Origin: Lachnospiraceae bacterium
GTDB taxonomy: Bacteria; Bacillota; Clostridia; Lachnospirales; Lachnospiraceae
Assembly: GCA_016282915.1 (NCBI GenBank)
Contig: JAEELW010000159.1
Coordinates: 1 to 64,000, forward strand
DNA: 64,000 nt
Direction of reading: 5' to 3'
Shown: one piece after another, positions 9,117 to 15,510 of the stretch
Layout of the letters: every line of letters begins with the position of its first letter
Position numbering within the stretch: position 1 is the first letter of the stretch
Notes under the pieces: model-generated
What the model saw: the letters and a program-made list of their open reading frames with translations, nothing else
The model's database searches: none
What the model was told of the DNA's origin: nothing
Position numbers and translations under genes: made by a program

Positions 9117-10933
<1,817 letters not shown>

Positions 10934-10986: not shown

Positions 10987-11928
10987 TCAGCGTTCCGCCT
11001 CCTCCGAAGCGTTTTCTTTTTTCTTTCTTTTCTTTCTCTGTGCCCTGGCTCCGGCCGAGACCTCCGTGATCTCCTGCGTGATGCCGGCCTGCCGCACACG
11101 GTTGTATTCGATCTTCAGTTCACCGAGCAGTTCTTCCGCATTTTTATTCGCATTGCTCATGGCGTTCATGCGCGCGCTCTGCTCCGCGCAGAAGGAATCC
11201 ACCATGGCGCCGTATACAAAGCCCGCCACATAGGAGGGGATCATGCGCTCCAGAACCACCTTCGGCGAGGGTTCAAAACGATAGCTCCGGTCGGAAAAAT
11301 CCCTTATCCCCTTTTTCTCGAGAAAATCCCTTCTGGAAAAAGGCAAAAGCCGCACTTTCCGTACTGTGTTCTCCCTGTCGTTTTCCATGTTGGAATAGAT
11401 CACGCGGATCTCGTCCACATTGCCGCTGTCATATTCCTCCAGAAGCTTTGCCGCGATCTCCCTGGCCCTGGGAAAGGTCGGATCCTGGGCCGTATAATAA
11501 AAGGCTTCGACCATGGGTCTTTTGTGCTTTTTGAAATACCGGCGTCCGTAATCCCCGATCACGTAAAGCCGCGAGATCTTCCGCCGTTTCAGCTCCGCCT
11601 CTGCCAGTTTGATCACATTGGAATTGTAGGCACCTGCCAGTCCCCGGTCCGCCGTGATCACCAGATAGGCGTAGACCTTTTCCTCTGCGGGCTTTGCCTT
11701 CCCGTTTTCATCCTCCGGCGGATAAAAATATACGGAATCGATATCCGAACTGCTCTGGAAGATCCTTTTGATCTCGTATTCGGTGCTTTCAAAATAGGGC
11801 CGTGTTTTTTCCAGCCCTTCTTTTGCCCTGCGCATCTTTGCGGAAGAGATCAGATACATGGCGTTTGTGATCTTCCGCGTATTCTGCACACTTCCGATTC
11901 GGTTTTTCAGCTCCTTGATGTTTGCCAC
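10987..11928 (-). CDS. atpG: F1 ATP synthase gamma subunit with charged C-terminal extension
   Basis: [33 protein letters not shown]-terminal [35 protein letters not shown]. Confidence 0.95.
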
Positions 11929-13658
11929 TGCTTCAGATACTCCTTTGCGATCTCAAGGATCTCCTCCTTACGGCCTTCCTCCAGATCTCCCTTTTCATCG
12001 ATACCGCTGCAGATCTCGTCATGCATGCGCGCAAACTCGGAAAGCAGATCCTTTGTAAATGCGCCGATCTCTTCCACCGGCAGATCCTGCAGGATATGTC
12101 CCGTAGCAGTGAGCAGAAGGATGACCATCTGATGCAGACGGTAGGGCTTTCCCTGAGGCTGCCTCAGAATGCGCATCAGGCTCTGGCCGTACGCAAGCTG
12201 ACGCCTGGTCGTTTCATCCAGATCCGAAGAAAACTGGGTAAAGATCTCCATCTCGCGGTATTGCGCCAGATCGAGACGTATGGTACCCGCCGCCTTTTTC
12301 ATGGCCTTTTTCTGGGCGGCACCGCCCACACGGGAAACGGACAGCCCCACATTTACGGCGGGCCGCTGCCCCGAGAAAAAGAGGTCGCTCTCCAGAAAGA
12401 TCTGACCGTCGGTAATGGAGATGATATTGGTCGGGATATAGGCGGATACATCGCCCGCCTGGGTTTCCACGATAGGCAGCGCCGTCAGGCTGCCGCCTCC
12501 GAGTTCTTCCGAAAGATGTGCGGAACGCTCCAGCAGTCTGGAATGAAGATAGAACACGTCGCCCGGATAAGCCTCGCGTCCCGGAGAACGTTCCAGCAAA
12601 AGGGAAAGCGCGCGGTAGGCGATGGCGTGCTTGGAGAGGTCGTCATATACGATCAGCACGTCCTTTCCTTTGTACATGAAATATTCCCCAAGGGCCGTCG
12701 CCGCGTAAGGCGCCATGTACTGGATCGGTGCCGTTTCACTGGCCGTCGCGCTCACGACGATGGTATGCTTCATGGCGCCGGCGCGTCGCAGGTTTTCCAC
12801 CAGCTGGGCTACGCTGCTGGCTTTCTGTCCGATAGCTACATAAATGCAGATCACATCGTCCTGGTTCATGATGGCATCCAGAGCGATGGCCGTTTTTCCT
12901 GTCTGACGGTCGCCGATGATCAGCTCACGCTGTCCTCGGCCGATGGGAAACATGGAATCAATGGTGATCAGCCCCGTATACATGGGCTCGCAAACCGGCT
13001 GGCGGTCGATGATGCCCGGTGCCGGACTTTCTATGGCGCGGTATTCCTCCGCAAGGATGGGACCGGCTCCGTCGATGGGATCTCCCAGGGCGTTGACCAC
13101 GCGTCCCAGATACTGTTCACTGACAGGGATCCCGGCCGTTTTCTTTGTACGGCGTACACGGCTTCCTTCCGTCACGCCTTCATCATCACCGAAAAGGATG
13201 ACCCCCAGGCTGTCCCTGCGGATATCCTGCACCATACCCTTCACGCCGGATTCAAAGACCAGGATCTCTCCGTAAACCGCCTTGGAAAGGCCTTCCACCA
13301 CAACGATCCCGTCACCGACGGTAAGGACCTTCCCCTCTTCCGCCGGAAGCGTCTCGACGTTCCAGCTGTCGATGGAGCTTTTGAACAGGCTGATCACATC
13401 CTGTCCGTCATTTTCCGAAGTGACCAGCTCCCGGAGTCTTTCCTTCAGCTGATGGAAACGCCCCTCTCTGGTACGGTCATATACATCGTCACCCGCCACA
13501 AGACGAAAGCCTTCCGTGATGCTCTCATCCTCACGGAAGACCAGTTCAAATGCTTTGGAATAGCGCTTCCCCAGAAACGCGAGAAGCTTTTCCTTCTGCT
13601 CGTCATTCGGCTCGGCGGCGGCATAGAGATACGCGCGCCTCGGCTTTTTCTCAGCCAT
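11907..13658 (-). CDS. atpA: F1 ATP synthase alpha subunit with N-terminal delta-subunit C-terminal-like domain (fusion)
   Basis: Residues ~10-80 match a delta C-terminal pattern ([62 protein letters not shown]); remainder is canonical alpha ([15 protein letters not shown]). Confidence 0.93.
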
Positions 13659-14139
13659 CGCTCCGGCTCCTTTCCGCCTCTTTCACAAAACTGTCGTAAG
13701 GATCCCCCTCACTTCCGTCGCCGATCAGCTTGCGTGCCGCCTCCTCGATCATCCCGGCGATATCCTCTTTTGCGCCGGATACGATGGCCTTGCGCTCGCG
13801 CTCTCCCTGCTCGCGCGCATCCGAAAGGATCTGCTTCGCTTCGGCTCTTGCTTCGGCCGTCTGGCGCTTCTTCATCTCTTCCAGTTCCTTCGCGGCGTCC
13901 TTCTTCTGCTGTGCGATCTCTTCTTCGGCCTTTTTGATCTTTTCGGTATATTCCGCCTCTTTTGCTTCCGCCTTTTCCCTTGCCTGCTCCGTATCCTCAA
14001 AAAGCTCGCGGAGCTGCTTCGTACGCGCATCCATGAACTTCTTTACCGGCGCATACAGAAGGATGTAGAGTCCTCCGAAGAGGATCACCACATTAAAGAA
14101 ATGCAGAAGGATCTGTACAAAATCAATCCCTAAAGGCAT
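13651..14139 (-). CDS. atpF: Fo ATP synthase b subunit
   Basis: N-terminal TM helix plus long charged coiled coil, position in operon. Confidence 0.9.
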
Positions 14140-14154
14140 TGTATCTTCCTCCGT

Positions 14155-14565
14155 TTATAAGACAAACACGATCAGGATCGCAACGATCAGCGCATAGATA
14201 ACGACGGTCTCGATAAATACCAGGCCCAGCATCAGCTGTGTCTGGATCTTTCCGGCCGCTTCCGGCTGTCTTGCAACGCCTTCATTACTCTTCGCGATAG
14301 CGTGAGCCATGCCGAGCGCACCTGCGATCGCAGCAACGCCGATGGCGATGGCCGCCGCAATGGCCTTGGTTCCCGTAACGCTGTCCGCCGCATCCTCTTC
14401 AGGTCCCTCCGCGATGAGCATCGGAGCGTCCTCCGACGCCGCATAGCTTACCGGCGCATCCGCAGCCTTAGCCTTAAGCACGCCGGCCGCCATAACACCG
14501 ACGAGCAGCAGGCAGAATGCCGCCAGAACGACCGCCAGATTCCTGATCTTTTTCATTTTCTTCAT
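14155..14565 (-). CDS. atpE: Fo ATP synthase c subunit with N-terminal hydrophobic leader
   Basis: C-terminal VARQPEAAGKIQTQLMLGLVFIETVVIYALIVAI is canonical c subunit; start chosen at MKKMKKIRNL. Confidence 0.9.
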   Translation of the reverse strand: MKKMKKIRNLAVVLAAFCLLLVGVMAAGVLKAKAADAPVSYAASEDAPMLIAEGPEEDAADSVTGTKAIAAAIAIGVAAIAGALGMAHAIAKSNEGVARQPEAAGKIQTQLMLGLVFIETVVIYALIVAILIVFVL

Positions 14566-14679
14566 CCTCGCTTTCTTTTTTCTGTATACAGAATGATCTT
14601 TATTTATCTTCTCTGGATAATTTATACCGTATCCGGGATGCGTTTCCCGCGTGAGAAACACCCTTCCCTTGTGCAGGCA

Positions 14680-15510
14680 TCACCCGCTGCCGGCGCTCTT
14701 TTCTTCCATATGCTTATGATGCACCTCGCTGACCTCGCCGTAGTAAAAACTGGTGAGCATCGTGAGCACGTATGCCTGGATCAGCGCATGGATCACGGTA
14801 AACATCACGCCCACCACGACGGGCAGGGCAAAACTCAGTGTGATGAAATAATAGACAAGTTCGGTGGTGAGCATGCCGGAAAGCAATGCTCCGAACAGAC
14901 GGAAGGTCATGGAGACCGGCAGCGAGAAGTCCTTCAGCGTCTTGAATACCCCCTTGATGCCGTTTCCGGCGATGCCGCCGCTCATGATAAAGAAAAACGA
15001 AAGAAAGCCCATGCAGATCGCACCGTTCATATTGGCAAGCGGTGCGGGCAGGGAAATGGAATGTCCCTCCGTGGTCACGGCCTGAAAACCGAAAAGCTCA
15101 AACATGGTACCGACAAAGATATAGGAACCCGCGCCGAAGATATAGCCGCCCAGCGCGCGGTTCCGGTGCGGCGAATTTGTTTTTGCGAGATCGTCAAAAA
15201 AGCCTACCCAGCTTTCGATGATAAGCTGCAGTCTTCCGGGGATCATCTTAAATCTCGGGATCACAAAGATACGCAGGAGCAGCGCAATGAACAGGAGGAC
15301 TCCCGTCACGACAAAACCTGCGATCAGGGAAGGATCGACGGCAAAGCCGAAAAAGTTCACTTTGTTCGCATCGTGCAGGACCGCATCACGCATGGCTTCC
15401 TTGATACCCTCATGCTTCTCCGAAGCGGGCAGAAGGATCACTCCCACGACGATGAGCGCGAGCGTTGCCAGACAGAGCAGTAATACGGTGATTTTTTTCT
15501 TTTTCGTCAA
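14680..15510 (-). CDS. atpB: Fo ATP synthase a subunit
   Basis: Polytopic; FRLFGALLSGML and ALIQAYVLTMLTSFY motifs. Confidence 0.93.
   Translation of the reverse strand: MTKKKKITVLLLCLATLALIVVGVILLPASEKHEGIKEAMRDAVLHDANKVNFFGFAVDPSLIAGFVVTGVLLFIALLLRIFVIPRFKMIPGRLQLIIESWVGFFDDLAKTNSPHRNRALGGYIFGAGSYIFVGTMFELFGFQAVTTEGHSISLPAPLANMNGAICMGFLSFFFIMSGGIAGNGIKGVFKTLKDFSLPVSMTFRLFGALLSGMLTTELVYYFITLSFALPVVVGVMFTVIHALIQAYVLTMLTSFYYGEVSEVHHKHMEEKSAGSG

Follow-up and report, generated by a model that had tools for sequence, protein, structure and literature searches.

The closest described system is an engineered enzyme, the deltaDeltaN-alpha FoF1 of Bacillus PS3, published in 2025 (PMC12229609, structure 9jc1). 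Its particles carried 0, 1, 2 or 3 peripheral stalks in proportions of 15, 51, 26 and 8%, with a mean of 1.26 stalks by cryo-EM; each stalk came with an a subunit, and the content of a and b was about twice that of the wild type. This enzyme had an H+/ATP ratio of 5.8, against 3.0 in the wild type, with the equilibrium pmf halved and pumping activity reduced (PMC12229609). The same authors ascribed the one-stalk rule to the delta N-domain, which sits on the threefold axis, and named natural cases, namely Acidaminococcus fermentans and the UniProt entries G4Q3K6 and A0A1I2C5T3. In our full-text literature searches this was the only paper that dealt with a delta-alpha fusion, and no purified natural enzyme of the deltaDeltaN-alpha type was found in the literature. 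The sequence-only reading of the locus presented here had left undecided whether such a fusion had been described; the architecture is in fact already known, both engineered and noted in nature (PMC12229609). What is new here is its occurrence as one open frame in 33 of the 295 genomes sampled from the order, the present one included, and across many families of Clostridia.

The window, that is the whole stretch of 64,000 nucleotides that was analysed, comes from a gut bacterium and encodes together the alpha, beta, gamma, epsilon, a, b and c subunits of an F-type ATP synthase. The operon lies on the minus strand (15510-9117) in the order atpB-atpE-atpF-[deltaCTD-alpha]-atpG-atpD-atpC, in which no delta gene separates atpF from atpA and a stand-alone delta is lacking altogether. 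Its features are the following:

14680..15510, minus strand: atpB (a), 276 aa, single copy
14155..14661, minus strand: atpE (c), with a signal-peptide-like N-terminal extension
13651..14139, minus strand: atpF (b), 162 aa, single copy, C-terminus retained
11907..13658, minus strand: atpA, deltaDeltaN-alpha fusion subunit, 583 aa (TIGR00962 721 bits, Pfam OSCP 30.6 bits)
13434..13643, minus strand: delta/OSCP C-terminal domain of AtpA, residues 6-75, predicted beta-alpha-beta-beta-beta-alpha (Pfam OSCP 102-172, AlphaFold, Foldseek)
13344..13418, minus strand: linker and retained alpha N-terminal helix, residues 81-105 (helix 88-97)
11928..13337, minus strand: alpha core with beta-barrel, nucleotide-binding and C-terminal domains (Pfam)
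10987..11928, minus strand: atpG (gamma), 313 aa, with a 19-residue basic C-terminal tail at 10990-11046
9530..10918, minus strand: atpD (beta)
9117..9533, minus strand: atpC (epsilon), 138 aa, ordinary length

The atpA frame starts with an ATG served by an AAGGAG-type Shine-Dalgarno sequence and overlaps atpF (13651-14139) by 8 nt; the overlap, the length of 583 aa and the missing delta gene had all been noticed beforehand and are borne out by the ORF coordinates. Within AtpA, Pfam OSCP matches residues 6-75 with 30.6 bits (cut-off 22.3 bits; E 4.3e-7), and the match covers positions 102-172 of the 172-position profile only. As the match is confined to this region, only the C-terminal delta domain is present. 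The families ATP-synt_ab_N, ATP-synt_ab and ATP-synt_ab_C follow it, and AtpA is a delta/OSCP C-terminal domain joined to a complete alpha subunit. The earlier proposal that the delta N-domain was lost and the C-domain fused to alpha stands for this operon.

The predicted structure agrees with the profile. An AlphaFold2 model of the N-terminal region, built from 28 locus-derived sequences, folds residues 7-80 into beta-alpha-beta-beta-beta-alpha and places the N-terminal helix of alpha after them (88-97), with pLDDT values of 76-94 across most of the delta C-domain. The top 47 Foldseek matches of this model were all ATP synthase delta, OSCP or b-delta chains, together with the engineered fusion 9jc1. 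When the whole AtpA model was compared (1,237 structural matches), the best three were chains of 9jc1, and the best match of the N-terminal profile among PDB sequences was 9jc1_I, in an alignment that spans the fusion junction. AlphaFold, Foldseek and profile searches concur in identifying the modelled first ~80 residues as the delta/OSCP C-terminal domain, which the sequence-only reading had recognised from a residue pattern and for which it had suggested this very check. Profile, predicted fold and PDB comparison all place this domain N-terminally on a complete alpha.

The delta N-domain is missing from the genes of this enzyme. The window genome (G000; 3.85 Mb, 181 contigs, 98% complete) contains exactly two OSCP matches, the AtpA fusion and a full-length delta, the latter belonging to a second operon. 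The families listed for the b subunit include no OSCP match, and b is not a b-delta fusion; this and the two genomic OSCP matches rule out that the delta N-domain hides on b or in some other place. An assembly or start-codon artefact is likewise ruled out, by a fusion that is unbroken in the order's 33 fusion genomes and in 80 of 80 named loci.

The second operon, G000:C121, has the canonical order AtpZ-AtpI-a-c-b-delta-alpha-gamma-beta-epsilon, and its atpH encodes a full delta of 184 aa (OSCP 1-172, E 8.8e-48). The statement that there is no stand-alone atpH is thus correct for the window operon but not for the genome. A full-length atpH elsewhere had been named as grounds for abandoning the fusion; one exists, to the letter, but it is part of another enzyme, and in ten relatives no delta besides the fusion was found. 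By the Na+ versus H+ rule for c subunits given in PMC11738941, the one from C121 is Na+-type, its motif being complete (TM1 has GQG, TM2 has AVAETT and Y). The window c carries ET in TM2 and lacks the Na+-translocating motif (Gln/Glu in TM1, Glu-Ser/Thr-Thr in TM2), since Met replaces Gln at the Q32 position, and by this motif rule it is H+-type. Its true start is probably M33 at 14565. The c genes of the window clade have a long signal-peptide-like N-terminal extension (ORFs mostly about 105-170 aa), which is lacking from c in other fusion lineages.

The same pairing was found throughout the order: c motifs are H+-type in 33 of 33 fused operons and Na+-type in the 21 canonical partner operons read, and all 21 two-F-ATPase genomes checked combine an H+-type fused enzyme with a Na+-type partner, counts that are not independent events as each type is largely one clade. 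Fused operons are devoid of AtpZ/AtpI genes, which most partner operons have. Paired Na+ and H+ ATP synthases are reported for rumen butyrivibrios (Schoelmerich 2020, as relayed by PMC11026938). In the window's family, membrane-bound [NiFe] (Ech-like) matches are nearly confined to genomes that have an H+-type F-ATPase. The window genome has RnfC, and no Ech-like match was found in it, so the Rnf/Ech two-circuit account is not directly applicable to that genome.

The gamma subunits also differ. The window gamma ends in a basic tail of 19 residues, against 2-6 residues without Lys or Arg in canonical Na+ enzymes; median lengths of the Lys/Arg-rich tail are 8-19 residues in most fused H+-clade lineages versus 4 in canonical Na+ enzymes, a difference that follows clade and is not independent evidence. 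Such a tail could fill the space vacated by the delta N-domain.

Among the 33 fusion genomes, OSCP counts reveal a second delta in 23, and the fusion is the only delta found in 10 (G053, G119, G127, G103, G181, G030, G220, G201, G216 and G166), some of whose assemblies are just 75-90% complete. In nine of these ten there are, in addition, two rotary-ATPase frames that form a pair of V/A-type size; in the remaining one, G053 (98% complete), the fused alpha and its beta were found and no other rotary ATPase. A class-wide sample of 341 genomes contained more fusions in many other families, of which 20 were retrieved and read. In a scan of GTDB genomes, the fusion is free of stops in all of the best 80 named loci, which come from Lachnospiraceae, Oscillospiraceae, Christensenellaceae, Oscillibacter, Lawsonibacter and Pygmaiobacter and include two Eubacterium ruminantium strains, one of them the cultured type strain ATCC 17233 (locus L235). 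The comparison with relatives that had been called for adds 32 genomes of the order and these 80 loci to the window.

Close relatives show three states: a separate short delta with alpha, a full delta-alpha fusion and the truncated fusion. The full fusions (~670 aa; 669-690 aa) match the OSCP profile from about 11-26 to 167-172 and are found at L077, L079, L080, L081 and L094, and at L179 and L180, with a conserved N-domain. With the Na+ clade as root, trees of alpha and of alpha plus beta unite the order's H+-type enzymes (except that L129, a long branch, fell outside the H+ group in a first tree made from alpha alone); in these trees full and truncated fusions interleave, and L085 (truncated) and L080 (full) are sisters. 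The window-type fused enzyme and its canonical partner belong to distant alpha clades. In topology tests, whose groups were chosen after viewing a first tree and whose p values are indicative, a single clade of all truncated fusions was rejected (p 9.4e-9; without family f17, p 2.6e-4), and a single fusion origin inside the H+ clade was not rejected (p 0.23; without f17, p 0.44). Since one origin of the truncated form is rejected, this form must have arisen more than once. On the class-wide tree, the window is a member of one large truncated clade that extends across many Clostridia families, the full fusions of family f41 (L179, L180) have their own branch, and six truncated fusions (L184, L186-L190) group with canonical enzymes, which adds another independent origin.

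The most economical reading of these sequences is that whole delta was fused first and that its N-domain was then lost repeatedly, though separate fusions of an already truncated delta may have occurred. No decay of the N-domain was seen in the full fusions (log-distance ratio to alpha 4.1, versus 3.9 in separate deltas), and by this measure it is still constrained there, which indicates that fusion by itself need not multiply stalks. Our full-text searches, which covered few subscription journals, turned up no description of full delta-alpha fusions, of a repeated origin or of a Na+ enzyme as partner.

Further peculiarities of relatives were recorded. Four species belonging to one truncated-fusion lineage have a gamma frame that reads without stop into beta (open frames of about 746-842 aa; L177:5397-7757 and L178:5415-7799, also L272 and L274, in genomes G418, G540, G636 and G626), placing a rotor and a stator subunit in one frame. 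These frames contain a conserved internal ATG after a purine-rich, Shine-Dalgarno-like stretch, that of L274 has a GGxQN-repeat linker, and several other genomes of the lineage's order have a stop between gamma and beta. The L174 alpha ORF (638 aa) has three tandem MNEMSDNEFRSRVASATNG(VA) copies N-terminal to the delta domain. Finally, L125, L128, L133 and L134 have two tandem H+-type c genes in separate-delta H+ operons.

We consider it somewhat probable that the window codes for a second ATP synthase/ATPase, one that moves H+ in a low gear and whose three delta C-domains allow it to have more than one peripheral stalk. Delta is cut down to its b-binding C-terminal domain and attached to the alpha N-terminus. 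As F1 is alpha3beta3, it follows that it has three delta C-domains as docking sites, the copy number that the sequence-only reading had deduced, and, with no N-domain on the threefold axis, that b2 stalks dock directly on alpha. By analogy with the PS3 enzyme, one to three b2-a modules could bind per F1, and such a low gear would take more H+ per ATP, allowing ATP to be made at low pmf or many H+ to be pumped per ATP. Because the engineered enzyme has the same architecture, it is reasonable to infer more than one stalk in the natural enzyme. Against this stand the mean of only 1.26 stalks and the reduced pumping of the engineered enzyme; each operon has one a and one b gene, and no sequence sign of a raised a/b dosage was seen. 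These single genes would suit an enzyme in which the fusion merely swaps the clamp of the delta N-domain for a covalent bond, with one b2-a module, two idle delta C-domains and an ordinary H+/ATP. We give this single-stalk arrangement appreciable, if minor, weight: half of the engineered particles have one stalk (PMC12229609), and known FoF1 structures as a rule have one a per c-ring. However, the engineered enzyme of the same architecture also yields particles with two and with three stalks, and its H+/ATP is doubled; its authors regard the delta N-domain as what limits the enzyme to one stalk (PMC12229609), and that this domain was lost repeatedly is in keeping with additional stalks being selected for or at least tolerated.

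A single delta C-domain per F1 could also be restored if internal initiation or proteolysis yielded alpha free of the delta domain, each ring then taking up about one fused subunit. An in-frame start codon is indeed present in the linker region of 85 of 128 fusions (in the window, a GTG at residue 88), but the other 43 have none, a Shine-Dalgarno sequence of at least 5 nt precedes the linker start in only 6 of 128, as opposed to 16 of 41 true separate alpha starts, and there is no conserved internal start. No internal start backed by a Shine-Dalgarno sequence was found in the linker region of the window atpA, the GTG at residue 88 having none before it, and we regard such a mixed ring as very unlikely. 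The presence of a full-length atpH in the genome raises the option that the second operon's delta serves the fused enzyme in trans, the fused domain being vestigial. This is extremely improbable, given that the fusion is the only delta in ten related genomes, that the fused domain is kept in the 33 genomes of the order and in all 80 named loci, and that the two enzymes lie in distant alpha clades. Indeed, the ten genomes, and G053 with no other rotary ATPase, suggest that the fused enzyme works without a delta in trans.

More tentatively, beyond the low-gear, multi-stalk enzyme proposed for the window, many Clostridia may pair two gears, one being a Na+ enzyme that has ordinary delta and a single stalk, the other an H+ fusion enzyme with several stalks, the multi-stalk form having evolved repeatedly via fusion of whole delta and then loss of the N-domain that enforces one stalk. 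The engineered enzyme raised the question of natural multi-stalk ATP synthases in 2025, and a large natural fusion family makes it testable. This family supplies a cultured type strain (Eubacterium ruminantium ATCC 17233), genomes with the fused enzyme as only F-ATPase and evolutionary intermediates, from separate delta through full delta-alpha fusion to delta-truncated fusion. With an H+ fused and a Na+ canonical enzyme in one cell, H+/ATP stoichiometry and division of labour become directly testable.

Compared with the described systems, the window shares with a canonical bacterial F-type ATP synthase containing atpH the subunits a, b, c, alpha, beta, gamma and epsilon and their gene order; it differs in having neither a stand-alone delta nor a delta N-domain, and in three delta C-domains per F1. 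The mycobacterial b-delta fusion and the N-ATPase (PMC11738941) resemble it in that another stator subunit takes the role of delta, but there delta is absent or on b, whereas in the window it is on alpha. The N-ATPase type is ruled out by gene order (a-c-b-alpha-gamma-beta-epsilon in the window, beta-epsilon-X-X-a-c-(b delta)-alpha-gamma in N-ATPases); its extra genes are lacking in the window, where the alt_F1F0 models score below cut-off. The mycobacterial b-delta type is ruled out by gene order and model scores. The butyrivibrios with two ATP synthases (Schoelmerich 2020, via PMC11026938) are, as relayed there, like the window genome in combining H+- and Na+-types in one rumen Lachnospiraceae cell, and the window genome differs in that it has Rnf but no Ech-like match. 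The natural cases of A. fermentans, G4Q3K6 and A0A1I2C5T3, which were reported outside the genome set studied here and are likened by description only, have, as the window does, a delta-alpha gene fusion without the delta N-domain. Finally, the PS3 deltaDeltaN-alpha enzyme and the window AtpA have in common a delta C-domain, a short linker and the alpha N-terminus, with no delta N-domain; the former is designed and has its epsilon C-domain deleted, whereas the latter is natural, with a 138-aa epsilon and a different linker.
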